Of a DNA stretch of 58,869 nt, positions 35,290 to 56,778 are shown piece by piece. The stretch is taken from the NCBI GenBank assembly GCA_017536765.1, contig JAFXGV010000009.1:1-58869 (forward strand), in the 5' to 3' direction. The stretch comes from Bacteroidaceae bacterium (GTDB taxonomy: Bacteria > Bacteroidota > Bacteroidia > Bacteroidales > Bacteroidaceae). Each line of letters opens with the position of its first letter. The stretch's first letter is position 1. Below the pieces are notes generated by a model. The model saw only the letters and a program-made list of their open reading frames with translations, searched no databases and was not told where the DNA came from. Both the position numbers and the translations under genes were made by a program.

Positions 35290-35946
35290 TTAGAAAAGAG
35301 AAACAATCGTTCCTATGAAACTATCATACATTTGCAAATATGCATCAACAATGTCCGACCTAACCGATAACAGAACTATCATTGTGTTAAACAGCCAAAA
35401 AGAAAAAATGTATAAATATGAAAAGCTCAAAGGATACTGATTGATATCGGGCTGCCCTCTACCCATCAATGGCCATTCACCGAAATCCGATTTTATGCAT
35501 AACAGATGAAAGAAATAAGCTATTCCCAAAATCAACGCATATACAGAGGACATATCATTGGCAAAAAAATAACCAAATACCATTACAATATACGCAGCCA
35601 GCGGAAAGCAATATGGCGACAAGGACACAGCCTCCAGCATCCATTTGCTGCGGCCCATAGACGATACCAACCCACCATCGGCATCAACCCTCAACATCAA
35701 TATTTGCCTGAAGGTTATAAGGTTGAAAAGAAGATGGGTATTCTCGTGGTGATACGTCTTCAGCCATTGATTGTTTGTCGATGTGTATTTATCCACTACA
35801 AACATAATAAGGCAGCCACCCAAAAAGTAAGCATATGGTTCCGGATTGTCACAAAACACCTTAAACACTTCGCCCACATTCATAAGAGTGAATATAAGGA
35901 AAATGCACAAACAAGCCATCCAGATTATGAAACCTTTGACACTCAT
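35290..35946 (-). CDS. Polytopic membrane protein with HExxH motif (possible metalloprotease)
   Basis: This 218-residue protein has about five hydrophobic segments and the zinc-protease signature HENTH at residues 67-71, at the start of a membrane segment (HHENTHLLFNLI). A conserved-looking DFGEWPLMGRGQPD follows near residue 155. The layout, HExxH at the membrane with an Asp-containing later segment, resembles M50-type intramembrane proteases, but I cannot confirm the third ligand. It is the last gene of the eleven-gene minus-strand block, 2 bases after its upstream neighbour, so the two are certainly co-transcribed. Confidence 0.55.
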   Translation of the reverse strand: MSVKGFIIWMACLCIFLIFTLMNVGEVFKVFCDNPEPYAYFLGGCLIMFVVDKYTSTNNQWLKTYHHENTHLLFNLITFRQILMLRVDADGGLVSSMGRSKWMLEAVSLSPYCFPLAAYIVMVFGYFFANDMSSVYALILGIAYFFHLLCIKSDFGEWPLMGRGQPDINQYPLSFSYLYIFSFWLFNTMIVLLSVRSDIVDAYLQMYDSFIGTIVSLF

Positions 35947-35948
35947 AA

Positions 35949-36518
35949 TTAATTCTCTTTTTTAGTTCTTGGTTTAAGAATAATTATTATCAAGAAAACA
36001 ACGACCACCGCTATAAATAGCCACCATTTTTGCATATCATCATTTTTAATTATCTCTTCATTTGTGTCTATGACACCGTTATCAACAAGTAACGATACAA
36101 GCCACACCGGTGTGATGACATAATCCTCATTCCATCCTTTTTCACGTGGCAGTGAAAAATAATTACCCTGTTCATCTTCTCCCCATTCGAAGCCATAGCC
36201 TTCGAACTCGCGAATGGTAAGGTTTGCAAGCATTTTAAGTTTGGAGGCAAACTTGGCCGAATCCGAAACATATAGTTGCAGTTTTTTCTTACTGCTGTCA
36301 ACAACCTTTAACAAGGTTTTGTCTTCACCCTTTTCCTGTTCATTTACTACAGAGGTGAATACTTTGTCGTTCATATATACAAGATATTCATCCGCATTCT
36401 TGTTCGGCGTTTTGCCATCCTTATATTCATTGTTAAAGACAAATATATAAGCTATAATCGCGAATAAGAATAATACTAACGTAAATATTTTCGTCGGGCT
36501 TATTTCTTCGGGTTTCAT
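35949..36518 (-). CDS. Small bitopic membrane protein of unknown function
   Basis: This 189-residue protein has an N-terminal membrane helix (about 10-29) and a C-terminal one (about 166-182), with a soluble domain of about 135 residues between them. That domain holds a GFEWGEDEQGNYFSLPREKGW stretch split by Gly and aromatic residues, and a Lys-rich cytoplasmic tail. I recognise no family. It lies between the giant SEDS/PBP-like gene (95-base gap) and the HExxH membrane protein (2-base gap), so it probably assembles with one of them, for example as an accessory subunit or protease substrate. Confidence 0.6.
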   Translation of the reverse strand: MKPEEISPTKIFTLVLFLFAIIAYIFVFNNEYKDGKTPNKNADEYLVYMNDKVFTSVVNEQEKGEDKTLLKVVDSSKKKLQLYVSDSAKFASKLKMLANLTIREFEGYGFEWGEDEQGNYFSLPREKGWNEDYVITPVWLVSLLVDNGVIDTNEEIIKNDDMQKWWLFIAVVVVFLIIIILKPRTKKEN

Positions 36519-36613
36519 CTGCTATCTTCAATTATCTAAATTACACTTCTTCTTTTATGCAAATATTTGCACTATACACATTAACCACGGATTACACTCT
36601 TTGAGCATTGGCA

Positions 36614-39600
36614 TTAATTTCTTAGCTGTGCTTCACTGTTCATATATGCACTAAAGGCATCGGACGCTATGACTTCTGCAATGCATTCATATACTGTAGA
36701 AAGGAAATTCTCCTTGTAGTAGTCAATCGCAAAATACATAATGATGAATTTGGCATCTTCATTGTCGGCACATAACTGCCTGTCTGAAATTATAATAGCC
36801 ATTCTACGTAAATCCGGTCTTTCTATAACACCTCCTTGGCTGCCGGTACTATACCTTACATTGTTTCTGACGTAGAACACTTCATTTGTAGTTCCGGTCT
36901 TGGCATATATGTAATAATTTTTATTGTTATATACGATGCTGCAGCTATCAGAATTATAAGGCATTCCTTTTTTGCGTAGATTATTTTTCCCATCCTTGCT
37001 ATGAGCTGTTCCATTATTGAAACATTGACTCATTCCAAGATACTTAATCGGCTCTGCATTGATAAACGCTGCATTGCCCACACCAATGTCTTTAACGGCT
37101 GTGGTCTTGGCCACCTTTGGGATAAAGGAAAAGTTGTACATAGAGCTCAAGCGGACCATTTTACCATACATTTCGGCCATTGACAATGGGGTTACTTCCC
37201 ACGCCGATTGTTGGCCGATGGCAATTGCCCTTACCGTATTGTTTTCTTTATCATTCTTAAATAGATTAAAATTCAATACCGAAGCCTGAGGTATAATAAA
37301 TTGGTTGCGGACAATAGTATCCATATTGGGATACAGTTGTTTTGCATCCCTGTTTATTCTATTTTTCACATATTCAACACCTAAACCAAACTTTTCCGAC
37401 ATTTGATGGTAAAGCACACTTTTATCCAGTTCGTCTTTATTTATTTTCTTGTCGAGCGTGTATATACCACCGTTTTTATCTTTGAAGAATGGGAAATGGT
37501 CGCGATATTCATTTTTTTCACTTCTACCGAGTTTTGGATACTTACGGAACAATCTCAATTCTTTGTCATCGTAGGCTTGTTTTGTAAAATCCTTACTATC
37601 ATACAAATCCCTATTGTGCAAGCCTATATATACCATAGCCGCATTGTAATAATTGCTTGACATTTTCAGGAATTTATCAAGTGTCACATCCTCTATACCT
37701 TTTAGCTCATCTGAAAGAAGGCTCTTAAACTCATATACTGCATCACCATTAAACTTATATGTGTAAAAATCAACAGCGCTTTTGAATTCTTTATTAACCT
37801 TCTGTTTTAATTCTTTACCAACCTTCTCAAGCTTAAAGTTGCTCCAATCAATGTTGTCGATAGCCGAAGCAACAGCTGTCCACACAATAGGTTTCTGGCT
37901 TGAACCCGGACCGGCATCCATACGTACAAAGTTCTTATTCTCGAAATATTGACTTTCTCTAATATACCTGTCGCCATCGACATTCATATACAATTTCTCC
38001 ACTATCTCGTTAATGCGTTTGGTATCATTGGGATTCACCTCATAACCGGGTTTGGAATCAACAATAGCCAATATTTGTCCGTCTCCATCTGCTACAATTA
38101 CAGAATACGCAATCAGGTCCTTAAGGTACTCTTTAGCCTTCTGCTGGCCCTCAGTTGCCTTTGTCTTAAGCCTGCTGTATAGTTCTTTCGACAATGCGCC
38201 ATTAAGAGTTATTTCCACATCGGAGTTAATGATGCTGTCCTTGTCACCACCCTTATATTGGGCAATTTCGTTATTTTTGCTCGTCTTCACTATTTTTTCG
38301 GCAAAATCCTTTATCCAATACAAAGATTCGCCATAAGGATAGATAAACTGCGGTTTTCCATTCACCATTACGCTGCGTGCCCAATATGTAGGTTTAGGCG
38401 TGAATGACGATTCCACCAACCGACCGTTATATCTTATTGTATTACCCTTATTCCAGACCTTGACATTCTCCATTCTGTATATACTATCTGCGCCACCCTT
38501 CACAATGCAACGCGCCTCACCTTCTGCTACCCAATCCTTGTTCAAGATATAGAATTTTACATCATCCTTAGGAAATACGGTATCTTGCTCGCACAACGAT
38601 ACAGCGCGCTCCACGATGTTACCTCGCCAATCGTCTTTTATGCTTAGCGGCAATGAAAGTTCGTAATAGTTGGTGCGCATTGCTATTACAAGAGAGTCTT
38701 TCTTTGCGTTATGCAGGTGCACAAGATTGCTATACTTGTTATCATAAGAGCCATACTTCACATAGTTCTCCCATATTCGTAACGGGAAATTGTATGCCGT
38801 AGTGTCTTCCAGATTTAGACAAAGTTCTCCCCTACACTTCGGACACAGGCCTGGCAATTCGTGCCTCAGGAGCGTGGTATCACACTCATTGCATATATAT
38901 CTATTTGTAGCCTCTTCCCAAGCCTTTTCCTTGAATTTCTTTCTTATCCAATCATTTATGGTAATATACGAAGAGGCCGTTGCTGAGGGTGTATCGAGCA
39001 TTATCTTGTTATTCAGCGTGTCATATTTTGCTTCTGTAAACGCGACAATGTCGGGGTGCATATTGTTCTTCAACTTTATCGGATGCATATTGTTCTTCAG
39101 CATTACCGAATCCTTCTGATACTCAGCAAACAACTTGTTAATAATAGGAATATATGAATCGTTTGCACGTTTAATGAGCGGTTCCATTCCGTATTTGTCA
39201 CTTCTATTGGCACCGATATGAGGTTGTATGAATGTGATTACGGAAAGAAAGACAATAAGCAAGAATGATGCTGTTTTGGCAAGCCCCTCGTTATAATGGC
39301 TTATTCCCTCATAGTTGTCATCTTCATTGTAGGCTTTGTACATAAACGACTCTATTATAGCAGCCAATATCCAAATACATATCAGCGCAATAGAATATAT
39401 AACCATTATCTTAGCTGTTATCGAAAGCAATGGGAAATCCTGACCAAAGAAAATAAAACGTCCCGTATTGGCCAGCCATATCAACGCGCTTTGTGTAAAC
39501 AGCAACAAAGGTATTTGCACCAGCAACGACTTTGTGAAACGGTAATATGTTGTTTTCCTCAAGCCAAAATATACCATAAGCAAAAGCAGTGCGATGAAAA

Positions 39601-42600
39601 TTACAGGCAGGATTCTCGAGTGTTCCGTTATGACATATCTCAATATGACAATGTCTGTCACCTGCGCATTCCACATAGCGCCAAGTTTGCTCTGCGGTTG
39701 CATTTTGAAATAGCCGTTACCTTTTTCGCCAAGAATCTCCACGTTTTCACTTCTCTTTTTATACTGGTTCAGTATCCAGTGATTATGAGAAGCCTGGAGA
39801 AAACGTTTTTCATCGTTATTGTTGTCTATTCTTGCCAGAGCCTCGTGTGGTTCATTTATCAGCACGTTTATGCGTTGAACAGTGTGGTTTCCTTTACGTC
39901 CTATAATATCAACCACACTAATACCTCTTGAAAAGGTCAGTATTCCGGACACGAATAAGACAAGCAGTACAACCCAAGTTATAAGAGGCGCCCACGCTCC
40001 CGACTTTACACTTTCATACAAAACTATAGGCACGCATACCTTGCTTAAGATAAATGCGTTTACAGGTACTATAACAATCAACAAGAGTAGAGCTACCGGC
40101 TTATTGATTACCATATTTGAAAATACCGGCATAGTCACTCCCTCGGAGAATAGTACCGCAATCAACGCAAGCACACACGCACACAAAAGTGCAATTCCAA
40201 TCTTTCCGCGATAAGTCTTTAGGACTATTAGCAGCGCTACCACTATTTCAATAGCAAAAATCGCTATTACACGTTTCAAATCACTGCAACAAAGTGATGC
40301 CACATAAGCAGTGAGACAGAGAGAAACCAAAACAAATAATAATGAAAATATCGCACTTTTTATGTTAATTACTCTACCCTCTTCATTTTTCACTTCGTCA
40401 CACGGCACCGCTTTATCACATTGGTTTCTCAGTGCAAATACAGGTATTCTCATTTCTCTGCACAATATAAAAAATACGCCTATTAATATCAGCGAGAAAC
40501 TTATTATAAATGACGTTGAATAGAATGCGTTTATAATGATAGTCCTGTATAATATAAGTACAATGACAACTAATATTAACAGTAAAATAGCAGCGTAATA
40601 TATTCTGTGCCCATTATCTCTATAAACCTTGGTGTACAGGTCGAGCAGCTTAAAACAGAATGTAATGAGACAGAAGGTGGCGAACATAATCATAAATCCA
40701 CTGTCGGGTTTCACCAAAAAAGCAGTTGTCAGTGCCATATTAAGGAAAGTCAAGAACAGGGGAGTCACTACCCTCAACCTCACACGCTCATTGATTACAA
40801 TGTTCTCACTCTTGAATGTGGGATAGTATTTTGTATTGATTAAAATATCAATCAGGAAGTATAATATTACAAACAAGGCAATTCCTATTCTGGTAGTAGT
40901 AGTAGAACCGGAATACATCAAAATAAGAGAAACCAAATATAATATCGATAATACCCCTACTGACAATATTAAACGTTTTTTTCCTCCACCTAAAACAAAC
41001 AATTCATTCTTAAAAAGCCTGTCAGATATAGAGTACCTGTCCATTCTTGATATTATGAACTTTGCTCCGTTGATTAAGACGAAGAAGAGAATCAACGCGC
41101 CTATCATCCATTTGTAATGAGCGGTTTCATAAAAAATAGTATTCATTTCAAAACTCGAAACGTTTTCCAACGGATGAAATACCGATGTACGCCAAAGCAG
41201 GAAACAACGGAATGCAATAAAAAAGATGAGAACTATGTAGGCTATATATTCTACATAGGTGAATGTATCGGGACGATTATCTCTACCGGGCACATTGATC
41301 AAAATATGGAAAACTATAGAAAGTACCGATGCCAAGGCAACAAATAGTACAGTCCACATCATCTTTTGCGAATTGAAGGGGGTTGACTCCCTTAAATTTT
41401 CGACACACATTTCCCAAGTAACATTACCGGTTTCTTCTTGTGTATCAATTGAAATTACCAAATTTTCATTCTGTCTGAAAATTGACTTTTTGCTGCAAAC
41501 GGCAGAACAGCTATAGTCATTACTGATGCTATCGTACTTTTGACACAGGAAACTCATCCTTTCTCTTGTATCTCCCACTGCAAAAGAGAGGTGAAAAGGC
41601 TTGAACAGATACTTGTTGTCATTATGGTCGAAGATGTCAAACACAACCATATTACTCGGAGCTTTTTCGATAACAAGCAAAGAATCCCGCGAGCCATTAT
41701 CACCAACGTTGTTGTTCATCAGTGAGTTTGCAACAAGAACCGTTTCCGTTATATTACCTTCATAGTTGTTCAAAGGACGGTAATACGGCATATCAAATTC
41801 AATGAATATCCTACCGTCGCCTTTACTTACGAACCTGAATGGGGATGACTTGGTTTCGCCATATCCTATTGTGATGCATCGCGATGCACACACACTATCG
41901 ATTTCGTTCTTTTCCATTTTTATGGATATGACGTCTTCCTTGCCCGATTGGGCCAGGTCATATTCAATCCCCTTATGTATGATTCGGCTTATATATCTAT
42001 TGTCCTTGTCAAACGCCTTATTGTTTATATTAAGTACGAAATTCGTACCACCGGCATCGGAAATTTCATCATTGTTGGCTCTTTGATTAGGTTTCACACG
42101 TACAATATCAATTCCATTGAAATTGAAGCTTGTAAACGGTATTCCCGCAAGAAGGCTGTTCATATCATATCCGACCTTGAATAATGTCTTCACATTGGAT
42201 ATGGCTGTATTCCCGTTATATCTGAAATAATAGTCGGCACTGTCCTTCTCAGCATTATCGTACTCGTTAAACCAGAATTCGATTTCCTCCTCAACACCTT
42301 GTCCGTTATGTTTGACAAATGTAATCGTATCATTCTCTTTGAATACGATAAAGTTTCTCTTGTTAAGCAATTCCTTTCGTATCTTGTCCCCATATACAGT
42401 ATCTATGTATATAGGATGAGTGAATCCCTTGGCAACAAGAGTTATGGTTGAATCATTTGAATTGTAATTCCTTATTACAACACTTCCATTGAAGTCCTTA
42501 TTATCAAAAATGGCCGTATTATCATTTTTGGCAAGTACCACGCTGTCGGGGTTATTTATGGAAAACCCGTCAAGACGCAATGCGTGATGCATATTATTTG

Positions 42601-42919: not shown

Positions 42920-42968
42920 ATATTTAGTTTCTTATGAAATTTGGAATTACTATTTTTGTAAGGCTGTT

Positions 42969-43733
42969 TCAAGAGAGTTTGTAACCCGAACATATAACAT
43001 TGGAGCGGTTAATCCCCTTGCTTGCAAGCATTTTCTTCAATACTACAGCCCACGAATCCGTCTCATACTGATTATCGGTTATAAGCTTGGCTTGCGACAG
43101 GGCATCTTCCCTTGTAATATTATTCTTCAAAAGCTTGACATTAAGTTCCTGCCCCGATAATGCATTAGGGTTGTTGAATGCCGTTGTAACAACGTCATAA
43201 GTAGTCATTGCAGCATCAAGTATCTGCTCAAGAATCATATTATAGTCGGCAGTTTTTACCGAATCGGCCTGCAGTCCTTTAAGGCACGTCATCAGCGGGC
43301 GCATTTTCTTGTCACGCAAAAGAAGTATCAAACAATATGCTTCGGCACCTTGACGAAGCACATTAAAGAAGTTCATATACTGTTGCCGTTCGTTTTCATC
43401 GGGTATTTTTTCAACAAGCTGGCACACGATGAAATCTATCAATGCCTCGAGTCTTTCTTGAAAGCCCGTTACTTTTTTAAAATTGGGCAAAGACCTATAA
43501 ATAGCATTCAAGGCGCTCTCTTTCTCCTTAAGGGCCTTAATACGCTCCACACTTGGAAGACCGGCGGATTTTTCCTCAAGCTCATTCTTGAGTCCTTTTA
43601 TCGTTTCCTGTTGTGTCGATATATCCCCTTTAAGCACTTTAATTGTTTTGCGCGCTTTTATATATAAAAATAGAACAATTGAAGCCGCTATAACAAAAAA
43701 GAACAGCAATAATAATACAATCAAATCACTCAT
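42969..43733 (-). CDS. Membrane-anchored coiled-coil protein of unknown function
   Basis: This 254-residue protein starts with one long membrane helix (about 4-25), followed by a heptad-rich coiled coil (about 30-70) and a helical C-terminal domain with no recognised family. The topology (short N-terminus, single helix, coiled coil) resembles the small scaffold proteins that accompany SEDS-PBP pairs, such as FtsL/FtsB or MreC, though orientation is not certain and there is no sequence match to these. It lies between the second ATPase gene (77-base gap containing a hairpin) and the giant SEDS/PBP-like gene (49-base gap). Confidence 0.65.
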   Translation of the reverse strand: MSDLIVLLLLFFFVIAASIVLFLYIKARKTIKVLKGDISTQQETIKGLKNELEEKSAGLPSVERIKALKEKESALNAIYRSLPNFKKVTGFQERLEALIDFIVCQLVEKIPDENERQQYMNFFNVLRQGAEAYCLILLLRDKKMRPLMTCLKGLQADSVKTADYNMILEQILDAAMTTYDVVTTAFNNPNALSGQELNVKLLKNNITREDALSQAKLITDNQYETDSWAVVLKKMLASKGINRSNVICSGYKLS

Positions 43734-43764
43734 TTCTCATTCAATATTAATCAGTTTCTAAACA

Positions 43765-43790
43765 GGTAATGGAGGCAGCCCTCCATTACC
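43765..43790 (-). other. Intercistronic hairpin
   Basis: GGTAATGGAGG and CCTCCATTACC form a perfect 11-base stem with a 4-base loop region between the second ATPase and the coiled-coil gene. There is no long T-tract, so it more likely sets mRNA stability or partial termination within the block. Confidence 0.6.
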
Positions 43791-43810
43791 ACATATAATG
43801 CAATTGGCTA

Positions 43811-46501: not shown

Positions 46502-46542
46502 AGTAATAGTATTTTTCTAAAAATTATAATCTCGGTTCAATA

Positions 46543-47595: not shown

Positions 47596-47695
47596 ATGTA
47601 CACGATTTATGTTTTATTTTCAATTGTTAAATATTTTCTCTTTTCAAATATAGAGATTATTTGGTAAACTTTTACATTATCAAAGGCTTATTCTT

Positions 47696-50600
47696 TTAAT
47701 TCTGATAAACTATTGGCCACAGGCTCTTACGCAGATTCTCATTACTATAATCGTCGTGATAATTTATCGTCAGTATTCTGTTACCCGCTTTGTAAGTTAC
47801 CTTATTGTCACTTATTGAGAGATTAAATGCCATTCTATTCACGGGTGCGTTCAAAACGTATCGGTCCAGCACAGTTGTCATATCCATATCATACGCAGGA
47901 GTTGTACTATATGTATGGCAAAGATGTATGGCGGTGACACCATTCATTGGCAATTCTTGTGTGTAATCTTGCACGCCTTTGTTTGTATCTATAAAACTTG
48001 TCCATTCTCTTTGACCTGTTGCCATAATCTTGATAATTCCATATGAGCCATAATTCTCTCTTTTGGTAATTGTAAAGCCGTCGGAATTATACTGAGTAAA
48101 CAGCATATAATCGAGAGCACCACACGCCACAACTGTTTTTAAAGGAGTGATGTTGTCTTGACTTTCTTTGTGCCCGTTTATAAGTATATCATCCATACTA
48201 AATGGAGAATACCCTCCTGTTATATTATAGCATCTTCTGTCAGAGTTTCTCGCCACCGCATTTCCGTTGTTTACAGCTTCGACAAGTCCGTCTCTTATGA
48301 CATTAAGCGATGCACCTCTACCGGAAATAATAACCGTGTCTATCTTTAACAGATTCTTGTTGACGGTGTTCCGTCTTTTAATTCCATCGATTATATCGGA
48401 TGTGCAGCTCCTAACGAAATCTTTGAACTTTTCGTGCCCGACAATGTCCCCCATACTGATATCCTTGAATACATCCACGTCAATGCCACCTAATCTCCAT
48501 ACGGGGCTATTGTTGTTTACTTCCGGAGCAGGCAATATTGTTGAGGCCTCTTTATTAAGCAATGGTTTTACTATATTACGCAAATAATCCTTAAATTGAT
48601 TGTTCATTGCGTAATTAACAATGTTTGTATCATAAGAAATAAGTGCTCTTAAATTTTTATATACAGGGTCGTCTTCTTTATTATCTTTTAGGAACAACAC
48701 CAAATCGCAGATGATTTCGCCAAGCAGATAATCAATATAATTTCCGGCTTTATTGACACCGACTCTATCCTTGATATCCAATTTGTACTTACCATCTTTA
48801 TTACGCGACACCAATGCATACGAGATATCCAATGTGCCGGCTCCCATATCAAACACAAGAACATATTCACCTTGTCGGCCGGTCACATTATACAAACGCT
48901 CTTTTTTCGCTTGGTCGTCATCAATTGTTTTCTTGACATAGGAACACAATACAGCATCGCTCTCGCTCACAAAAGTAAGTTTATCCTTGCGCAAAGTAGG
49001 TATGGTAGAAAGAACAATCTCTTTTATCTTCTCTATTTGAACCGGTGTGAATGTATTTGGAACAGTGAGCAACAAGGTTTCTATTTCGTATTCTTTAAGA
49101 TAGTAATTACATAGTTGCTTATACGCTGTTTCGAACACGCTGTCCACCGCCATTTTTCCAATTTGGCAATCAACGATATTGGGAATATATTGATGCCCTA
49201 TCATATTCTTAAGACAGGGCAATTGGTCACTTGGGGTAACCATACCGGTTGATGGGGAGAGCCATATTTCCTCATCCTTGAACCCTTTACCTTCAACCTC
49301 TACATCTTTCTTATAAGCAGAGTTTGCATATATTGATGAAGCAATAAGCGGCGAAGGTACCTTGCGGTCCTGGAGTTTGTGCCTTTCTTTCGCAGCAAAA
49401 TTCTCCATAAGAAGCCTTTTCTTTATTACATCCAATGGTACAAAGTCTGGTTTGAACTCGCCATTATCGTTCTGCCACGCTTTATACACAGCTATTGCCG
49501 ATGTTCCAAAATCGAGGCTATACCAATACTTAGGGGGCTTGCGATACAACTTAAAAGAAATGTTACAACTGAAGTTTTCTTTTATACTCTTCTTATCATC
49601 GATTTCAACGGACTTATTTCCCATCTTATCGGTAACCTCTTTATAATGCGGTTCTTCATAAGTAAACTCTATATTTTGAGACCATAGCATAAATCCGCTG
49701 TTACCCTTTACAGCAATATTTTCAATGGCATTGAAATCGAGTATTATCGGGATTTCTATTGAATTGTGTTGAACAGTCAACTCCTTATTTGCTACAGTAG
49801 AAGACCAATCACTTGAACAGTTACCTGTTATGCGTTTTTCATCACCCGTAAACAGGGTTCTGATATCTTCAATTTTTATACCACGATCTATCTGCCCGGG
49901 GATAGTTTCAGTTGCAACATTCTTTATGACAACCGTTTTGGTAACATATCCATCGTCCGACAAATGCACCTCCTGAAGTTCATAGGCTGCAGATTTCCCA
50001 TTTTCAAGACGAGTTTTCTTTTCGCCTCCGGTTATGTCTGTTTCCAAGACCTCTACACACAAATGGTTATAGCGTGGATCGAAATCATATTTGGCAGATA
50101 CAGCCTCTATTACATTTTGCTTTTTGCACGTCTCGTAACTACAAGAGGCTTCGATTTTTATTCTATCACCGGGATTAGGAAATGGCAGTCCGTTTTTACA
50201 AACAAAAACAGGAAGTGTTCTTTTTTCACCATCAAGCGAGAAAGTTGCCTTATTATTGCCACCGGTTTCTCCAAGAACGCAATCATATTCATTATTGCCA
50301 TATTTTGCCTTTACGGTTACTTCCGCATCTCTATCACCGATTTTTATACCAGGCATCGGATTTATTACCAATTCTGCACATTTAAATCTATCCTCCGTAA
50401 AATCGGTATAATCTACCGATACGGCTTTTAAGGAGATGATTTTATCTTTTAAGCAACTGTTGCACAGATTGTTGACTTGCATCTCGAAAACAGATGATTC
50501 GCAAATGATATTTCCGTTTCGCTTCAGCAATAACTTATAGGCTATTGAACCGTCAATCTCGCACCCTGCAACAGGAACAACGGCGGCAGTAATATCGAAA

Positions 50601-50824
50601 GTACCCGGTTTTTCTATTTTGAATTGCGTTTTGCTCAAAACAACATCGAAACAACCTGGATTAGCTGTTTTCTTAACCTCTATAGTATAATACTTACTGT
50701 AGAAGAATTTCTCAAAGAAACCTATAGAATCGATTTGAAGTTGCCACATATTCTGCAACTCTTTATTAATAGCCTTGCAATAGTTTCTCTGTTCGGTTCC
50801 GGGAGACAAAAAATGACATTTCAT
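47696..50824 (-). CDS. Hsp70/actin-superfamily ATPase A
   Basis: This 1042-residue protein has a beta-rich N-terminal half (1-430, repeated sandwich-like segments) and then an Hsp70-like ATPase: YSLDFGTSAIAVYKAW (D438, phosphate 1), LLTVPNTFTPVQI (the Hsp70 VP-F segment), LVFDMGAGTLDIS (D659, phosphate 2) and IISGRGASL (G835-R-G837, adenosine). A C-terminal beta-rich domain of about 140 residues follows in place of the Hsp70 substrate-binding domain. All loops look functional. It may use its N-terminal domains to bind a client such as the membrane polymerase. It follows the Ca2+ ATPase by 74 bases, which include a hairpin. Confidence 0.78.
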   Translation of the reverse strand: MKCHFLSPGTEQRNYCKAINKELQNMWQLQIDSIGFFEKFFYSKYYTIEVKKTANPGCFDVVLSKTQFKIEKPGTFDITAAVVPVAGCEIDGSIAYKLLLKRNGNIICESSVFEMQVNNLCNSCLKDKIISLKAVSVDYTDFTEDRFKCAELVINPMPGIKIGDRDAEVTVKAKYGNNEYDCVLGETGGNNKATFSLDGEKRTLPVFVCKNGLPFPNPGDRIKIEASCSYETCKKQNVIEAVSAKYDFDPRYNHLCVEVLETDITGGEKKTRLENGKSAAYELQEVHLSDDGYVTKTVVIKNVATETIPGQIDRGIKIEDIRTLFTGDEKRITGNCSSDWSSTVANKELTVQHNSIEIPIILDFNAIENIAVKGNSGFMLWSQNIEFTYEEPHYKEVTDKMGNKSVEIDDKKSIKENFSCNISFKLYRKPPKYWYSLDFGTSAIAVYKAWQNDNGEFKPDFVPLDVIKKRLLMENFAAKERHKLQDRKVPSPLIASSIYANSAYKKDVEVEGKGFKDEEIWLSPSTGMVTPSDQLPCLKNMIGHQYIPNIVDCQIGKMAVDSVFETAYKQLCNYYLKEYEIETLLLTVPNTFTPVQIEKIKEIVLSTIPTLRKDKLTFVSESDAVLCSYVKKTIDDDQAKKERLYNVTGRQGEYVLVFDMGAGTLDISYALVSRNKDGKYKLDIKDRVGVNKAGNYIDYLLGEIICDLVLFLKDNKEDDPVYKNLRALISYDTNIVNYAMNNQFKDYLRNIVKPLLNKEASTILPAPEVNNNSPVWRLGGIDVDVFKDISMGDIVGHEKFKDFVRSCTSDIIDGIKRRNTVNKNLLKIDTVIISGRGASLNVIRDGLVEAVNNGNAVARNSDRRCYNITGGYSPFSMDDILINGHKESQDNITPLKTVVACGALDYMLFTQYNSDGFTITKRENYGSYGIIKIMATGQREWTSFIDTNKGVQDYTQELPMNGVTAIHLCHTYSTTPAYDMDMTTVLDRYVLNAPVNRMAFNLSISDNKVTYKAGNRILTINYHDDYSNENLRKSLWPIVYQN

Positions 50825-50898: not shown

Positions 50899-53763
50899 TT
50901 ATCTTATTTTATTCCACACTTCTCGCACCCATAACACAAGCGAGGAAGCGGCTACGATAACCAGCCAATCGATACATCCGCCGGGATTGAACTGCCAATC
51001 AACGGTATGGAACATAGGCTCTACATTAAAGAAGTTGTACAGCAACTCGACAATCACAATCTGGCCCAACACGATAACAGCAACTATTGTCTTAAAGCCT
51101 GAACTCTGCTTAAGGGCAAAGTAGCTCTTTCCTGTCTCAAAAGAACGGGCATTGAACATATACCAGAAGTGAGTCCACACAAATATTGAGAACAGGAGCG
51201 TCTGCTCATAGGGCGTCACCTTGTTTGCTGCACCCAGTTCAAGAGAGAGCAAATCGGTTATGCTTGTAATCTCGGCGTGCTGGAATATATACAAGAAGCC
51301 TAATGTGAGAACGAAGAAGAACAATCCTACACCCCAGATATCGACACTCATAGCTTTGCTGAGGATAAATGCCTTGCGATCACGTGGTTTGCTGTTCATA
51401 ACCTCGGGCGAAGGAGGCAGTGATGCCAGCGCCATTGCTCCAAACGTATCCATTATAAGGTTTACCCAAAGCATTTGCGTAACGGTGAGCGGCGACTCGG
51501 TACCCATAAATGCACCAAACAGCACAATGAAGCAGGCTGCAACGTTTACCGTCAGCTGGAACAGCAGGAATCTCTGGATATTCTGGTAGAGCGAACGGCC
51601 CCACATTACAGCTCTTCCTATGCTACTGAAGGAGTTGTCAATAATAGTTATGTCACTTGCCTCCTTGGCAACAGAGGTTCCGTCACCCATTGACAAGCCC
51701 ACGTGGGCTGCCTTCAACGCAGGAGCATCATTGGTACCGTCACCAGTTACAGAAACCACCTGATTCTTCTTCATAAGAGCCTCTACCAGACGTTTCTTGT
51801 CCATTGGACGCGCACGGGCAATAATCTTCAGGTCGAGTATCACATCATCGAGCCGGCTGTCGCTAAGAGCAGCAAATTCGGGACCTGTTATGATATTCTT
51901 GTCACTATCCACGGATGTCCAAAGACCTATCTGGCGGCCAATCTCCTTTGCCGTGCCCGGTGTGTCACCGGTGACAATCTTAACTGCAATGCCGGCCTTG
52001 ACACACTCCTCCACAGCTGCCGGAACATCTTCGCGCACGGGGTCCGATATTGCAACAATACCCAGGAAGGTGAGATTATCGGCAACAACCTTATTGTCTT
52101 TAATAGCATCGTCGTTTGTGTCCAGGATTTGGTATGCAAAACCAAGAGTACGCATCGCCTGTTCCTGGTATCGGCACAGCTGCCGGTCAATACTTGCCTT
52201 ATCTGCATTTCCACAAGTGTGCTTACACAATGAATGCACTATTTCGGGAGCGCCCTTTACATATAGAATCTTTTTACCAAGAGACGAGTTGACTATTGTT
52301 GCCATATACTTTCTCTCTGTCGAGAATGGCAACTCCTCAATCAATGTGGTACCCTCCTTCAACGTTTTGTAATCAATTCCTTGCTCCTTGAGCCACAGCA
52401 GCAACGCGCCTTCGGTAGGATTGCCAAGAACTTTAACCTTGCTTGCATCGGATATATCCAACGAAGCTGTTGAGTTTACCGCGATACCCTCTTTTACCAG
52501 CACACTCACCTCGTCATCGGCCAACTGTTGGTTGTTCAATGAGTAAAAGTTTGTACTGTAAATCTTCATCTGGTTCTGCGTGAGGGTACCGGTCTTGTCG
52601 GTACATATGACTGTGGTTGCACCCATAGTTTCGCAGGCGTGCATCTTGCGCACCAGGTTATTTGTCTTGAGCATTCTACGCATACTGTATGCCAAGCTCA
52701 ATGTAACGGCCATAGGAAGACCTTCGGGCACGGCAACCACAATAAGGGTTACTGCAATCATCAGTGTCTGCATTGTGTATGTAAGCAACTCGGCAAGCTC
52801 CATACTGGAATGCAAATAGTAGAATAGACCTAAAACCATTGCCAAGAATATTGCAAAGAACCCAACAATGGTCAGAATACATTGCGCCTTGCTGAAATCT
52901 TCAAACTTCTTGATAACCAGGTAGAAGAACAATGCTGTGGGAAGCAACAACGAAAGAGCCATCCAGTTCCAATCGAAAAAGACCAAAAGTCGGCCTATTA
53001 TCACAAGGCCCGCAAACAGATAACTCAGGTTGGTAATCAAATCACTCAAACCATCCAGTTGCTCATTTAGGGGAGTCTTAACGCTGTCATCAATCTGCGC
53101 AGCCTCGAACACCTTGCCGGCCTCAGTCTTGTCGCCTACGGCAAAAACGCGGCACACACCGTGTCCTTCCATAACTTTGGTTCCCCTCATCACGTGGTTA
53201 GAGGGGTAAGTGGCTTCTTTTTCAAAATCGGCCTCTATCACTGTTTTACTACGTAGCGGTTCGCCGGTGAGTGTCGACTCATCTACCTCCAACATTACCG
53301 CCTCAAGCAATTCCGCATCGGCAGGGACCTCATCACCTGTTGAAAGAATTACTATGTCGCCCACCACCACATCTTTTTTGGGAACCTCTATAGTATTGCC
53401 ATCACGAATAACCTTTACCGGTTCGTCGTCGTTAACCTGGTTCAGAATAGAGAACTCCTTGTCGGCTATCATCTCAAAATAGAATGACAACCCTGTAGCA
53501 AGCAGGATTGCGACAAAAATTCCAATTGGTTCAAAGAATACCGTGGCATTATGTCCAAGGCCCCAAAACTCATAGCAGGATATTCCTATGGACAACAACC
53601 CAGCCACCAATAATATGCGGATTAAGGGATCGTCGAATTTTTCCAAGAATTTAGACCACAAAGACTCTTTCTCGGGCGGTGTGAGGATATTCACACCATA
53701 CTTTTCTCTACTTTCTAAAATTTCGGCTTCACTCAAGCCCTGATAACGTTCTTTTTTACTCAT
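50899..53763 (-). CDS. PMCA-type calcium-translocating P-type ATPase
   Basis: This protein of about 954 residues exports Ca2+ from the cytoplasm using ATP. It has the actuator motif TGEP, the phosphorylation site D389 in DKTGTLT, the hinge TGDGTNDAPALK and ten or so membrane helices. The type IIB Ca2+ ligands are present: Glu in VPEGLP of helix 4 and Asn/Asp in WVNLIMD of helix 6. I chose ATG 53763 (MSKKERYQGL), the usual N-terminus in this group; an in-frame ATG at 53784 is also possible. Its GC content is somewhat higher than its neighbours. A hairpin in front of it suggests partly separate expression. Confidence 0.93.
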   Translation of the reverse strand: MSKKERYQGLSEAEILESREKYGVNILTPPEKESLWSKFLEKFDDPLIRILLVAGLLSIGISCYEFWGLGHNATVFFEPIGIFVAILLATGLSFYFEMIADKEFSILNQVNDDEPVKVIRDGNTIEVPKKDVVVGDIVILSTGDEVPADAELLEAVMLEVDESTLTGEPLRSKTVIEADFEKEATYPSNHVMRGTKVMEGHGVCRVFAVGDKTEAGKVFEAAQIDDSVKTPLNEQLDGLSDLITNLSYLFAGLVIIGRLLVFFDWNWMALSLLLPTALFFYLVIKKFEDFSKAQCILTIVGFFAIFLAMVLGLFYYLHSSMELAELLTYTMQTLMIAVTLIVVAVPEGLPMAVTLSLAYSMRRMLKTNNLVRKMHACETMGATTVICTDKTGTLTQNQMKIYSTNFYSLNNQQLADDEVSVLVKEGIAVNSTASLDISDASKVKVLGNPTEGALLLWLKEQGIDYKTLKEGTTLIEELPFSTERKYMATIVNSSLGKKILYVKGAPEIVHSLCKHTCGNADKASIDRQLCRYQEQAMRTLGFAYQILDTNDDAIKDNKVVADNLTFLGIVAISDPVREDVPAAVEECVKAGIAVKIVTGDTPGTAKEIGRQIGLWTSVDSDKNIITGPEFAALSDSRLDDVILDLKIIARARPMDKKRLVEALMKKNQVVSVTGDGTNDAPALKAAHVGLSMGDGTSVAKEASDITIIDNSFSSIGRAVMWGRSLYQNIQRFLLFQLTVNVAACFIVLFGAFMGTESPLTVTQMLWVNLIMDTFGAMALASLPPSPEVMNSKPRDRKAFILSKAMSVDIWGVGLFFFVLTLGFLYIFQHAEITSITDLLSLELGAANKVTPYEQTLLFSIFVWTHFWYMFNARSFETGKSYFALKQSSGFKTIVAVIVLGQIVIVELLYNFFNVEPMFHTVDWQFNPGGCIDWLVIVAASSLVLWVREVWNKIR

Positions 53764-53822
53764 CACTATTATTTTTTCTTGCATCTATACTACTGCGAAC
53801 GACAAAGCGCCGCACCTTTACA

Positions 53823-53881: not shown

Positions 53882-54418
53882 TTACCAATAAAGATCGCCT
53901 TTACTGTAATTGAGATTCACCTGGTTCTGGATAGCCTGATAATTGTCTTTCAAGGCCATCTTTCTTTCATCGCCATTTCCATAGTCGCCACGGATAACCC
54001 GCTTTGCCATCAGAAGAACATCAACATCGCCACGACGCCCTGTATCGGCAACCGGTTTAGCAGCACCGGAAGCAACAGTTCTTCCACTCTCCAAAGATGA
54101 AGCGGCGTTGTCACTCGTTGCAGCCGCAGAGGTTCCCGATTGTTCCGCAGCCAAAGAAGAGGTTTCCGCCGCAGCACCGGCTACGGTCTCGGCCTCTGTG
54201 GCTACAGGACTATTTATTACAGCCTCTACCGTATTAACAATGGGGGTGTGGGGAGTAGTTCTTTCTTTGTCGCATGTATGTAAACATATCAAAGCTACAA
54301 TGGCGGCAACAATGAGCAGGAGCAAAACCCAGAGCCAACTTTTTTTCTTGGCAGGCTCTTTCCCCATTTTTTCGAAATCCTTGTTCGTAAAAAGTTGAAC
54401 ATTTCTTTCATTCCTCAT
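53882..54418 (-). CDS. Membrane-anchored protein with C-terminal Cpl-7-like cell-wall-binding domain
   Basis: This 178-residue protein has a basic cytoplasmic N-terminus, one membrane helix (about 27-46), a long Ala/Ser/Thr-rich linker (about 50-128) and a small C-terminal domain (about 130-170) reading VLLMAKRVIRGDYGNGDER and then QAIQNQVN. That pattern matches the Cpl-7/CW_7 repeat (ARxVIxGxWGNGxxR...YxxVQxxVN), which in phage endolysins binds the GlcNAc-MurNAc-dipeptide unit. Topology would put the domain in the periplasm. It lies 37 bases after terD copy 1, with no hairpin between, and probably tethers the complex to peptidoglycan. Confidence 0.7.
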   Translation of the reverse strand: MRNERNVQLFTNKDFEKMGKEPAKKKSWLWVLLLLIVAAIVALICLHTCDKERTTPHTPIVNTVEAVINSPVATEAETVAGAAAETSSLAAEQSGTSAAATSDNAASSLESGRTVASGAAKPVADTGRRGDVDVLLMAKRVIRGDYGNGDERKMALKDNYQAIQNQVNLNYSKGDLYW

Positions 54419-54455
54419 AATAAAGCACTTTTACATTGAACATTTAGAAGCCTAA

Positions 54456-55271
54456 TCAAAAAAAGCTATTGGCAATCGTCACAATTGGCACTACCACAAC
54501 ATCTCTACCAATCTCATCTCTTATATGCTCAAGTTTGTATCCCTTTGCTGTTGCTTCAAAACGCCACTCACCGTCCTCGTCACATTTAATAAATCCCAAA
54601 CATATACCCGTACATTCCCCTCTGGATAGACCATTGTCACAAAGTTCATTGTTATTCAGCAAGTATGGGCCGGCAATCACTTTATTGTCCATACCATCGG
54701 CATCCGGCTCAACGAACTCAACCATAGGATTCGAGATATGTACAAACTTCTTTCCTTCTTTCGCATCCTCTAAAGAGATGGTTGCAACTATTGCCACAGA
54801 CGAATATTGAGACATATCAATCTTTTCAACTCTAATATAAATCTCTTCCTCGTGTATATCATCCGCCGAGTCACCTTCTTGGCCTTGTTCGTCGTGCGAA
54901 CCTATTACACCACCACAGAGAGATAACGGATAACAACGTTCCATATATTCTTTTTTAGTCTTGCAAACTCCATCCTTTACAGCCTCTAATACATTGTGGT
55001 AGATTTTACCCTCAAACATATTGTCATCAGAAACGGGCTTCCACCTTATTGAAGAACGGAAACAGACAACATCGTCAATACGGGCTTTATCGCCTTTAAC
55101 AAATATCATTCCGTTCTTATCAAGCATTATTGCAGAGAGGTCCAAATCGGTGTGACCACCCCAGCTTAATCGCACTTTAATGATTTTCTCATCTTTATCA
55201 AAACTATCGGAGCTGATTTTTACCACATCACCGCTCTTCATAAACTGTTCGTTCGTAAATTTCGTTGGCAT
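54456..55271 (-). CDS. TerD-family protein, copy 1
   Basis: This 271-residue cytoplasmic protein has the TerD fold, a Ca2+-binding beta sandwich. The signatures are VRLSWGGHTDLDLSA (residues 33-47, with the D42-L-D44 calcium motif), then CGGVIGSHDEQGQEGDSADD, equivalent to the GAVxHSGDNxxGEGDGDDE segment of TerD, and VAIVATISLEDA. TerD proteins act in Ter stress systems linked to metal, phage and colicin resistance; the other Ter genes (terC, terB, telA) are absent here. The protein is about 80 residues longer than TerD because of an insert (about 70-110). It has its own promoter and leader and is about 78% identical to copy 2. Confidence 0.83.
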   Translation of the reverse strand: MPTKFTNEQFMKSGDVVKISSDSFDKDEKIIKVRLSWGGHTDLDLSAIMLDKNGMIFVKGDKARIDDVVCFRSSIRWKPVSDDNMFEGKIYHNVLEAVKDGVCKTKKEYMERCYPLSLCGGVIGSHDEQGQEGDSADDIHEEEIYIRVEKIDMSQYSSVAIVATISLEDAKEGKKFVHISNPMVEFVEPDADGMDNKVIAGPYLLNNNELCDNGLSRGECTGICLGFIKCDEDGEWRFEATAKGYKLEHIRDEIGRDVVVVPIVTIANSFF

Positions 55272-55321
55272 AATATAAACTTTTAATTATTAATAAATTC
55301 ATTCAAATTCCGGCAAATGGC

Positions 55322-55399
55322 TCACCGGTAAATACAGCTGTCATCTGCCACCATACATTGATCGTCACTCAAGAGAATCGTCTTGTTGGCACAATCCAT
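55322..55399 (-). CDS. Candidate 25-codon leader ORF, copy 1
   Basis: An ATG at 55399 opens a 25-residue frame with three Cys and several Asp (MDCANKTILL... ending DSCIYR), stopping at 55322, 50 bases before the terD ATG. Copy 2 encodes exactly the same peptide; the only base difference within the frame is a silent AGC/AGT. It could be a regulatory leader peptide. No Shine-Dalgarno site is evident, so translation is unproven. Confidence 0.4.
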   Translation of the reverse strand: MDCANKTILLSDDQCMVADDSCIYR

Positions 55400-55440
55400 C
55401 AATCCACTACCATTATTTATGTGCAATCGCCTGAAACAAC

Positions 55441-55471
55441 AAAAAAAGGAAAAGCAACCTTTGACTTTTCC
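55441..55471 (-). terminator. Leader hairpin with T-tract, copy 1
   Basis: On the minus strand GGAAAAG-T-CAA and TTGCTTTTCC make a 10-base stem with one bulged T and a 3-base AGG loop, followed at once by seven T. It starts about 10 bases after the predicted transcription start, so it can act as an attenuator for terD. Confidence 0.7.
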
Positions 55472-55486
55472 AAAAGCGAATCCTTG

Positions 55487-55517
55487 CAAATATATAAACA
55501 TTTATTAACTTGCCAAA
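55487..55517 (-). promoter_or_regulatory. Promoter of terD copy 1
   Basis: On the minus strand TTTG (55517-55514), 19 bases, then TATATTTG (55494-55487) is an ideal Bacteroidetes promoter. Transcription would begin near 55480, leaving a leader of about 210 bases. Confidence 0.8.
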
Positions 55518-55613
55518 AAAAACATTAATTTTTTCTAAAGACAGGTCAAAAGATGGTCCTAACATAAAGAGTAACAATGAGGCTCAAAGATAAAGGCCGT
55601 GAGAGCAGAACAA

Positions 55614-56429
55614 TCATACAAAGATTTTTGCAATCGTCACAATTGGCGATACCGCAACCTCTTTACCATTGTCATCTTTTATATGCTCAAGTTCGTATCC
55701 CTTTACTGTTGCTTCAAAACGCCACTCACCGTCCTCGTCACATTTAATAAATCCCAAACATATACCCGTACATCCCCCTCTGGATATACCATTGTCACAA
55801 AGTTCATTGTTATTCAGCAAGTATGGGCCCGCAATCACTTTATTATCCATACCATCGGCAGCCGGCTCAACGAACTCAACCATAAGATTCGAGAAATCTT
55901 CAAACCGTTCTCCTCTTTTCGCATCCTCTAAAGAGATGGTTGCTACTATTGCCACAGACGAATATTGAGACATATCAATCTTGTCAACTCTAATATAAAT
56001 CGCTTCCTCGTTTATATCATCCGCCGAGTCACCTTCTTGGCCTAGTTCGTCGTGCGAACCTATTACACCACCACAGATAGATGACGGATAACAACGTAGC
56101 ATATATTCTATTCTATTCCTGCAAACTCTATCCCTTACAGCCTCTGATACATCGGAGTAGATTTTACCCTCAAACATATTGTCATCAGAAACGGGTTTCC
56201 ACCTTATTGTGGAACGAAAACAGACGATGTCGTCAATACGGGGTCTGTTATTTTCCATGCATATTCTTCCATTCTCATCAAGCATTATGGCAGAGAGGTC
56301 CAAATAGGTGTAACCACCCCAGCTTAATCGCACTTTAATGATTTTCTCCTCTTTTTCAAAACTATTGGAGCTGATTCTTACCACATCACCACTATTCATA
56401 AACCGTTCGTTCGCAAATCTCCTTGGCAT
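55614..56429 (-). CDS. TerD-family protein, copy 2
   Basis: This 271-residue paralogue of copy 1 has the same length with no gaps in alignment; by eye about 211 of 271 residues are identical. Differences cluster at the N-terminus, at residues 52-63, 92-116 and 173-185, and at the C-terminus, while the core (SAIMLD, DGMDNKVIAGPYLLNNNELCDNG, FIKCDEDGEWRFEAT) is unchanged. The calcium motif is altered: residue 42 is Tyr, leaving Y-L-D-L in place of D-L-D-L. The gene is the first of the block and has its own promoter, so it may set expression of everything downstream. Confidence 0.83.
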   Translation of the reverse strand: MPRRFANERFMNSGDVVRISSNSFEKEEKIIKVRLSWGGYTYLDLSAIMLDENGRICMENNRPRIDDIVCFRSTIRWKPVSDDNMFEGKIYSDVSEAVRDRVCRNRIEYMLRCYPSSICGGVIGSHDELGQEGDSADDINEEAIYIRVDKIDMSQYSSVAIVATISLEDAKRGERFEDFSNLMVEFVEPAADGMDNKVIAGPYLLNNNELCDNGISRGGCTGICLGFIKCDEDGEWRFEATVKGYELEHIKDDNGKEVAVSPIVTIAKIFV

Positions 56430-56479
56430 AATATAAACTTTTAATTATTAATAAATTCATTCAAATTCCGGCAAATGGC

Positions 56480-56557
56480 TCACCGGTAAATACAACTGTC
56501 ATCTGCCACCATACATTGATCGTCACTCAAGAGAATCGTCTTGTTGGCACAATCCAT
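56480..56557 (-). CDS. Candidate 25-codon leader ORF, copy 2
   Basis: Same 25-residue peptide as in the copy-1 leader, from ATG at 56557 to a stop at 56480, with one silent difference. A single-base insertion lies just upstream of its ATG, so the frame before the ATG differs between copies while the ORF itself is preserved. Confidence 0.4.
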   Translation of the reverse strand: MDCANKTILLSDDQCMVADDSCIYR

Positions 56558-56599
56558 CAATCCACGACCATTATTTTATGTGCAATCGCCTGAAACAAC

Positions 56600-56630
56600 A
56601 AAAAAAGGAAAAGCAACCTTTGACTTTTCC
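56600..56630 (-). terminator. Leader hairpin with T-tract, copy 2
   Basis: Identical to the copy-1 hairpin: a 10-base stem with one bulge, 3-base loop and seven T, about 10 bases after the predicted start of transcription. Confidence 0.7.
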
Positions 56631-56645
56631 AAAAGCGAATCCTTG

Positions 56646-56675
56646 CAAATATATAAACATTTATTAACTTGCAAA
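56646..56675 (-). promoter_or_regulatory. Promoter of terD copy 2 and probably of the whole block
   Basis: On the minus strand TTTG (56675-56672), 18 bases, then TATATTTG (56653-56646). One base has been lost from the spacer relative to copy 1, which may change promoter strength. Confidence 0.78.
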
Positions 56676-56778
56676 AAAAACATTAATTTTTTCTAAAGAC
56701 AGGTCAAAAGATGGTCCTAACATAAAGAGTAACAATGAGGCCACGGTTATTAGACTTTCCCGGAATAGACAGTTCAAT

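Follow-up and report, generated by a model that had tools for sequence, protein, structure and literature searches.

The stretch analysed here, called the window, is an entire contig (G000:C27, 58,869 bases) from the 2.36-Mb draft genome of a Bacteroidaceae bacterium, which comprises 84 contigs. It carries eleven consecutive open reading frames (ORFs) on the minus strand, spanning positions 35290-56429 and free of internal stops. A first-pass annotation had read these genes as a single block forming one peptidoglycan machine, run by chaperone-type ATPases and gated by calcium. ORF coordinates confirm the eleven co-directional genes and their spacing, with gaps of 2-100 bases inside the block (2, 95, 49, 77, 41, 100, 74, 97 and 37, from left to right) and 342 bases between two terD copies. 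The end proposed for the block, 56738, falls three bases before the end of a tandem duplication (56741), beyond the last ORF (56429). Comparison with other genomes revealed that the block is two things, a conserved seven-gene operon (35290-50824) and four neighbours. The operon encodes, in this order, proteins of 1042, 350, 896, 254, 2101, 189 and 218 amino acids (aa), the first being ATPase A and the last an M50B-like protein. In the list below, TM stands for transmembrane, SEDS for shape, elongation, division and sporulation, PBP for penicillin-binding protein, E for expectation value and G996 for a second genome of the genus; core genes are the four that recur in other Bacteroidia.

47696-50824, minus strand: Hsp70-like ATPase A, 1042 aa; ortholog in G996, motifs LDFGTSA, FDMGAGTLD and ISGRG, match to the 896-aa protein
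46543-47595, minus strand: GrpE-like coiled-coil protein, 350 aa, no TM helix predicted; ortholog in G996, partial GrpE match
43811-46501, minus strand: Hsp70-like ATPase B, 896 aa, core gene 1; motifs IDCGSEA, MDAGKGTLD and FAGRG, homologs beside the fusion
42969-43733, minus strand: membrane-anchored coiled-coil protein, 254 aa, core gene 2; a single TM helix at the N terminus, C-terminal GYKLS
36614-42919, minus strand: predicted fusion of a SEDS glycosyltransferase and a class B PBP transpeptidase, 2101 aa, core gene 3; hhalign, motifs, TM prediction
35949-36518, minus strand: small membrane protein, 189 aa, core gene 4; two TM helices with a short domain between them
35290-35946, minus strand: M50B-like membrane metallopeptidase, 218 aa; HExxH motif (HHENTH), Pfam Peptidase_M50B at E 2e-4, below cut-off

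All seven genes recur in G996 on one strand and in identical order, with protein identities of about 30-53%. The G996 counterparts measure 1113 aa (1042 in the window; 31% identity over 1149 columns, E 6.6e-120), 598 aa (350; E 2.5e-26), 909 aa (896; E 1e-100), 257 aa (254; E 3e-21), 2391 aa (2101; E 2e-145), 187 aa (189; E 1.3e-33) and 233 aa (218; 53% identity, E 1e-83); an extra 212-aa gene accompanies the 257-aa one. The surroundings are unlike those in the window: by reading, PBP1A-like, KdsB-like and pyrimidine genes lie on one side and a patatin-like gene on the other, and the calcium pump, Cpl-7 and TerD genes that adjoin the window operon are all absent. In both genomes the operon is a low-GC island. 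Its GC content is 39.1% in G996, against 49.2 and 49.9% in the flanks, and 38.5% in the window, against 51.4% in the 35-kb left flank, 46.5% in the pump gene and 41.2% in the Cpl-7/TerD genes. Since the operon sits at different sites in two genomes of one genus, it is simplest to assume that it arrived separately in each.

A search with a three-row fusion profile found the fusion in two of 44 genomes of the genus, namely the window's own and G996. Other screens covered 247 genomes of the order (three matches: own, G077 and G240, the last of which was dropped), 395 of the phylum (two: own and G311), 298 of G311's order (nine: seven fusions and two FtsI), 20 of G790's family (three, all found before) and 150 of G911's family (three: G911 and the new G1034 and G1070); these sets are overlapping samples, not censuses. 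In total, the fusion is present in twelve genomes: G000 (the window's own), G996, G077, G311, G908, G882, G790, G809, G813, G911, G1034 and G1070. A scan of genome contigs with a pair of fusion sequences gave L022 as sole match, which agrees with the G077 contig in length and match position. The match in G240 (E 4e-4) is ascribed to chance, as its ORF reads as a TrkA-type potassium-transport protein and the cassette genes are not adjacent. Those in G814 and G825 are by reading FtsI genes in division clusters and were kept out of the fusion counts. No match was obtained in plasmids searched with ATPase A and the G311 fusion, in phages searched with both ATPases and the fusion, or in viral contigs searched with profiles of the same three proteins.

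In all ten testable genomes (G000, G996, G077, G311, G908, G882, G790, G911, G1034 and G1070; E 1e-100 to 8e-12), the fusion gene has an ATPase-B homolog next to it, separated by no more than the coiled-coil gene(s), one extra ORF in G1070 excepted; the contigs of G809 and G813 do not reach far enough on that side. The order Hsp70, coiled-coil gene, fusion holds in nine of these ten, with two coiled-coil genes in G077 and G996; in G1070 an additional 182-aa ORF on the opposite strand precedes the fusion. The exception is G911, whose Hsp70 gene runs divergently from the fusion, with the coiled-coil gene beyond it. All 11 testable loci have a small gene after the fusion (G790 ends at a contig edge; in G1070 the small gene is on a second contig). 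Relatives of the M50B-like gene are present in G996 and, on the downstream side of the core, in G911 (E 1.3e-6), with HExxH in all three sequences. Among fusion loci, the pair of ATPase A and the 350-aa protein recurs in G996 only; it is absent next to the core in the five judgeable loci (G311, G908, G882, G911 and G1034). Co-occurrence of the 2101-, 1042-, 896- and 350-residue families, suggested as a check by the first-pass annotation, is observed in 10 of 10 testable genomes for the 2101- and 896-residue families; all four together were seen in the window and in G996.

In G311, G908 and G882 the core stands in a common chromosomal context, and its GC content is like that of the surroundings in G311, G077, G911 and G1034. 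The ratio of nonsynonymous to synonymous substitution rates between G311 and G908 is 0.014 for the fusion and 0.028 for the Hsp70 gene; between G311 and G882 it is 0.075 for the small gene, the other three genes being saturated at synonymous sites and not usable. Judged from these comparisons, the four-gene core is a maintained gene set, under purifying selection in one genus. The phylogenetic tree, which like the motif table below rests on 11 of the 12 fusion genomes (G1070, with its split gene and in-frame stop, was left out), joins window and G996 firmly (100/100). Long branches are flagged in this tree and the placement of G077 and G911 is weak; no transfer between orders is claimed. Two paralogous proteins with a common N-terminal part and no Pfam family over the cut-off are encoded downstream of the core in G311 (L025:10533-12573), with counterparts in G908 and G882.

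The 2101-aa protein is predicted to have N-terminal TM helices, followed by a long non-membrane region, a SEDS-aligned part (745-1204, including D1089), a TM helix (1213-1231) and the transpeptidase part with motifs S1673xxK1676, S1754xN1756 and K2007TG. Overall, fusion sequences range from 1668 to 2391 aa. Family models detect little in it: the transpeptidase leaves only a trace in Pfam (E 0.035) and reaches E 0.0048 in NCBIfam, and SEDS is not detected by Pfam at E 0.1. Relationship was assessed by profile-profile comparison in hhalign, using ten fusion sequences, nine of which were used after filtering. Against 26 FtsW/RodA sequences the fusion profile gave E 6.2e-5 (probability 65%, 271 columns); the controls gave 0.011 (reversed), 0.17 (best of 20 column shuffles), 0.67 (MraY) and 0.61 (P-type ATPase). 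Against nine PBP2/FtsI sequences, some of them fragments, it gave E 2.3e-6 (probability 89%, 102 columns, residues 1895-2017), compared with 0.48 for the reversed control and 0.44 for the best of 20 column shuffles. Matches of the three-row fusion profile extend to the FtsI genes of G814 (E 3.5e-5) and G825 (E 2e-4).

In the hhalign alignment, VTDIVILRYVITEHS is placed on the TD-motif stretch of FtsW; therefore D1089 corresponds to FtsW D297 and RodA D262. The former is a putative catalytic residue according to the cited part of PMC8765783, and the latter is the corresponding SEDS aspartate in the cited part of PMC10449877. Further downstream, FFGQDFPLLS is aligned to the loop-5 region of SEDS. 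The SxxK, SxN and KTG motifs, the loop-4 Asp and Arg and the sequence FFGQD[FM]PxxS are kept in 11 of 11 fusions. Hydropathy points to three helices after the Asp loop and one more at 1213-1231, ahead of the transpeptidase, as expected for the end of a SEDS domain followed by the anchor of a PBP. The protein thus combines SEDS homology and the loop-4 Asp with class B PBP homology and the three transpeptidase motifs. By profile comparison with controls it is SEDS-like and PBP-like, and it keeps the residues predicted to be needed to polymerise and cross-link peptidoglycan; we infer that the fusion enzymes are active on this substrate.

Both ATPases carry nucleotide-binding motifs of the ASKHA (acetate and sugar kinases, Hsc70, actin) type. 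ATPase A has a long N-terminal region and a C-terminal SLWP motif; ATPase B has an SLFP motif at 798 followed by a polar tail. A seven-sequence profile of ATPase B matched Hsp70 nucleotide-binding domains best in PDB (whole-sequence E 6e-4; best single stretch 0.024), and MreB, FtsA and actin were not among the 60 of 74 matches listed. The ATPase A profile is weaker, with DnaK as best PDB match at E 0.41. The two proteins match each other at E 6e-6 in a database of 12 proteins. No family in Pfam, PADLOC or NCBIfam fits either of them at full length, and neither the Pfam search nor the PDB searches with the two ATPase profiles gave a match to the C-terminal substrate-binding domain and lid of Hsp70. 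Phosphate-1, phosphate-2 and adenosine patterns were all found in nine of 12 sequences, both window ATPases included; in G911, G1034 and the incomplete G1070 sequence they were lacking or out of place. An SLFP or SLWP motif near the C terminus is present in nine of the 12 Hsp70-like sequences, those with the nucleotide motifs, and might be a docking site. A reading of these proteins as a SrfA/SrfB/SrfC set was dropped: the neighbouring Cpl-7 protein has a weak SrfA match (E 0.012) and the ATPases have no SrfB match.

Taken over the C-terminal 260 aa, the 350-aa protein and its G996 ortholog matched 18 GrpE sequences at E 5.9e-4, the alignment spanning just 20 columns (0.2 for the reversed control); the full-length pair gave E 0.0022 (reversed 0.44). 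The 254-aa group gave no significant GrpE match (E 0.07-0.15; reversed 0.1-0.3). Its counterparts outside G996, assigned by position, have Gly-Tyr near the C terminus in six of the eight listed. Counterparts of the 189-aa protein outside G996 show weak sequence similarity. The domain assignments of the first-pass annotation can now be graded. Those of Cpl-7 (CW_7), the P-type cation ATPase and both TerD proteins agree with Pfam, and that of SEDS and PBP with profile-profile comparison and motifs. The Hsp70-like assignment is based on the profile for ATPase B and is weaker for ATPase A, and the GrpE-like one is based on a match of 20 columns.

SEDS-class B PBP pairs are among the main engines of wall growth, and the well-known ones are directed by actin-like or tubulin-like proteins. 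A cytoplasmic ATPase, a membrane coiled-coil linker, a SEDS protein and a class B transpeptidase constitute the plan of both elongasome and divisome. With moderate confidence, we propose that the seven genes encode an accessory, membrane-bound peptidoglycan synthase of Rod-like organisation, run by Hsp70-class ATPases. The machine would be additional, because the host genome encodes its own FtsW and RodA. Such an accessory machine with chaperone-type ATPases was part of the first-pass annotation, and this part gains from the seven-gene synteny with G996, the core found elsewhere and the residues kept in the fusion; its extension to eleven parts does not.

The SEDS part would polymerise lipid II and the class B PBP part of the same polypeptide would cross-link the product. 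The Hsp70-class ATPases would drive the synthase from the cytoplasm, and core genes 2 (coiled-coil) and 4 (small) could link ATPase to synthase across the membrane, in the manner of MreC/MreD/RodZ or FtsQLB, which connect MreB or FtsA with RodA-PBP2 or FtsW-FtsI. The GrpE-like protein might reset the ATPase, and the M50B-like peptidase could be a regulatory add-on. Most likely, ATP- and partner-driven changes in the Hsp70-like protein would activate or place the fused synthase via the coiled-coil membrane protein. Assembly into one complex, the direction of control and the function of the GrpE-like protein are all steps that we infer. The machine might serve in repair, in growth at a special site or in resistance to attack. 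More tentatively, and short of being probable, the operon could represent a third SEDS-class B PBP machine, in which an Hsp70-class cycle with a GrpE-like exchange factor, rather than actin or tubulin filaments, switches or places a self-contained synthase.

One close parallel is the Rod system (MreB-MreC-MreD-RodZ with RodA-PBP2). The mre operon has the order ATPase, coiled-coil membrane protein, synthase, and so does the operon described here, which likewise encodes an ASKHA-type ATPase, a membrane coiled-coil protein, SEDS and a class B PBP together. An interaction of MreB with both RodA and PBP2 has been reported (cited part of PMC13327600). In contrast to the Rod system, the operon ATPase looks Hsp70-type rather than MreB-type, SEDS and PBP form one polypeptide with large extra regions, and the MreB, MreC, MreD and RodZ families of Pfam and NCBIfam were not matched. 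The operon is not a Rod system, though it may function like one. In the divisome, an ATPase and small membrane proteins activate the SEDS-class B PBP pair (FtsA-FtsQLB-FtsW-FtsI). The fusion profile does match FtsI genes, but the operon lies outside the division cluster, is sporadic, and has no FtsQLB match and a single weak FtsA match (E 0.079). From the DnaK-GrpE pair it shares the ATPase nucleotide-binding domain and, weakly, the C-terminal end of GrpE; it differs in the long N-terminal region and distinct C terminus (SLFP/SLWP) of its ATPases and in the absence of a DnaJ gene. Single-ORF SEDS-PBP fusions are reported to exist (cited part of PMC10449877); the cited passage mentions no Hsp70 partner.

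A search of open-access literature found no description of Hsp70-type ATPases joined to a SEDS-PBP enzyme. The operon is thus apparently undescribed, although conserved in some Bacteroidota. If the proposal is true, a wall synthase wired to Hsp70-type ATPases would be another way to drive or gate wall synthesis, the chaperone-type module of predicted conflict systems would be linked to peptidoglycan building, and structural studies would gain a natural single-chain SEDS-PBP. With one fusion enzyme carrying predicted active-site residues and one adjacent ATPase, the operon lends itself to direct tests of the idea.

Several observations weigh against the proposed synthase. The fusion lacks the YGG residues typical of SEDS loop 5 and has FFGQD[FM]PxxS instead, with P and S kept; this lowers the claim to SEDS membership because FtsW Y379A and G380A are dominant-negative (cited part of PMC8765783). 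The reversed control of the SEDS match is just about 180-fold weaker than the match itself, and the hydropathy analysis lists 17 entries between 523 and 1189, more helices than a SEDS protein requires. The PBP alignment comprises 102 columns around KTG; SxxK and SxN lie outside and were assigned by pattern and order. The nine-row fusion profile found nothing significant among PDB sequences (best E 0.31; PBP1B 1.8), and AlphaFold models from two-row alignments were unusable, their mean predicted local distance difference test scores being 30 for the PBP portion (602 aa) and 37 for the SEDS portion (726 aa). The Hsp70 assignment of ATPase A is not strong, and single ATPase sequences weakly match MamK (E 0.022), FtsA (0.079) and diol-dehydratase reactivase (0.04), which makes the exact superfamily branch of each protein provisional. 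Finally, the coiled-coil and small genes outside G996 were matched mostly by position, and in G1070 the fusion is spread across two contigs and has an in-frame stop close to its end.

Alternatively, the operon might be a conflict system, serving defence or self-limitation, whose Hsp70/GrpE-like module senses invasion or envelope damage and whose fusion acts as the effector, strengthening or destroying the wall. We regard this as unlikely, although several findings point that way. Distribution is patchy (two of 44 genomes of the genus), with a low-GC island in both cases. ATPase A has a 76-residue match to the candidate-defence model PDC-M61B of PADLOC (E 1.5e-7; G996 ortholog E 6e-6), a model for which no paper using the name PDC-M61 was found. 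Besides the window's own genome, one of 295 genomes of the order has a relative of ATPase A, a protein of about 2,200 residues in G010; a genome-contig scan with the single ATPase A protein gave no relative. The gene run around it in G010 includes a ParA-like protein that has a double-GTPase-like stretch (PF19975, E 7e-5, below the Pfam cut-off) and matches PADLOC model PDC-M28B (E 1.9e-18). Tubulin-like (PF13809, E 2.4e-7) and trypsin-like protease (E 3e-17) proteins also belong to the run, and two more members read as a second Hsp70-like and a von Willebrand factor A (vWA)-like protein. This assortment is described for GTPase-centric conflict systems, in which HSP70 with GrpE is one theme (cited part of PMC7159879). 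With these systems the operon has in common an Hsp70-like protein with a GrpE-like partner and membrane and wall-facing parts. A chaperone-type module seems to be common to the predicted conflict systems and the synthase.

However, the similarity to the G010 protein is confined to the ATPase part, and the G010 contig has no match to the fusion. Unlike GTPase-centric conflict systems, the operon has no DO-GTPase, GAP1, tubulin, vWA or trypsin-like gene recognised by Pfam or NCBIfam; conversely, the terms FtsW and transpeptidase do not occur in the available text of PMC7159879. Searches of Pfam, PADLOC and NCBIfam recognised no nuclease, toxin, pore or known defence protein in the operon, and PADLOC matched no known anti-phage system, the coiled-coil protein giving weak DndD/PbeC matches (E 0.006-0.017). 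The common chromosomal context of the core in G311, G908 and G882, and its host-like GC content in G311, are not those of an island. As a separate observation, the G010 run (L003/L004, G010:C184), in which the Hsp70-like, vWA-like and membrane coiled-coil proteins are giant and in part assigned by reading, is a candidate new variant of GTPase-centric conflict system in Bacteroidales.

It is distinctly unlikely that the operon acts on the envelope without making peptidoglycan, its SEDS-like part and PBP-like acyltransferase being turned to another polymer or to anchoring of a surface layer. Extreme divergence, with no significant match in Pfam, NCBIfam or PDB sequences, the altered loop 5 and the long extra regions would fit such a role. 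On the other hand, none of the 11 fusions examined departs from the PBP motifs or the SEDS Asp, and a machine with another substrate need not keep them.

Upstream of the seven genes lie the four neighbours that complete the block, together with a promoter-like site.

50899-53784, minus strand: P-type Ca2+ ATPase, 961 aa, outside the conserved operon; Pfam E 6e-35
53882-54418, minus strand: bitopic protein with Cpl-7 (CW_7) cell-wall-binding domain, 178 aa; Pfam CW_7 E 1.1e-9, TM helix 28-46
54456-55271, minus strand: divergent TerD protein, copy a, 271 aa; Pfam TerD E 7e-6
55487-55517, minus strand: perfect match to the Bacteroidota promoter consensus, upstream of TerD copy a; an eleven-gene transcript might start here
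55614-56429, minus strand: divergent TerD protein, copy b, 271 aa, product of a duplication; Pfam TerD E 9e-6

The first-pass annotation had joined these genes to the other seven in a single machine gated by calcium; in such a machine gating would act via the P-type pump and TerD, and the Cpl-7 protein would be the wall sensor. Its basis is that all eleven genes are co-directional with short gaps, and promoter-match positions would allow one transcript: perfect matches to the same consensus lie upstream of both TerD genes on the minus strand, and the 74-base gap before ATPase A has no match with up to two mismatches, a site with two mismatches preceding the 350-aa gene. Sites with up to two mismatches arise often by chance (108 found, 89 expected). 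In the window genome the outer four genes may therefore share a transcript with the operon, which would not make them parts of the machine. The seven genes of G996 stand without the other four and have their own promoter-like site (one mismatch, 20-base spacer), and in the stretches inspected from other genomes no pump, Cpl-7 or TerD gene was seen next to the core. The pump has one match in its own genome and is present in 11 of 12 congeners searched, in another context in eight of eight examined, compared with the fusion in two of 44. A search with the TerD variant found relatives in none of 247 genomes of the order outside its own. Calcium gating loses its basis because pump, Cpl-7 and TerD were not seen beside the operon elsewhere, and the eleven-gene machine is very improbable. 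That the genes are unrelated and adjacent by chance is a description that fits the outer four; for the seven it is refuted by synteny at an unrelated site with 30-53% identity and by the core in further families, and it has practically negligible probability.

Both TerD proteins score barely above the Pfam cut-off. Their genes derive from a 1.1-kb tandem duplication (54454-55583 and 55612-56741; 92% DNA identity over 1134 columns). The duplicated unit includes the promoter-like site and a leader hairpin followed by a T run (55471-55448 and 56630-56607), a possible attenuator. The Pfam TerD model is too blunt for this variant, as at E 0.001 it finds none in the window's own genome despite two TerD genes. 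The variant matches phrog_5698, a phage family without assigned function (E 1.2e-7), and the Cpl-7 protein, in the portion that holds its CW_7 domain, matches the phage endolysin family phrog_7698 (E 3.6e-9); these neighbours may have a phage past. At another locus, L093, a 220-aa ORF adjoining a pump gene matched the fusion at E 9.5e-5.

The left flank of the operon has ordinary content: a citrate/sulfate-type transporter, glycoside hydrolases of families GH84, GH123 and GH95, a tetratricopeptide repeat protein, topoisomerase, shikimate kinase, arginine decarboxylase, a TonB receptor and an M1 peptidase. An Rfam search of 30000-58869 gave no match. On the other side of the block, a RES-domain gene (E 2.9e-8), which might encode an NAD-cleaving toxin, lies on the minus strand at 58405-58869 and is cut by the contig end. 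At 1.2 kb from it, a short helix-turn-helix gene (56779-57177, minus strand) has weak HipB/Xre-antitoxin-like matches and an odd-looking tail.

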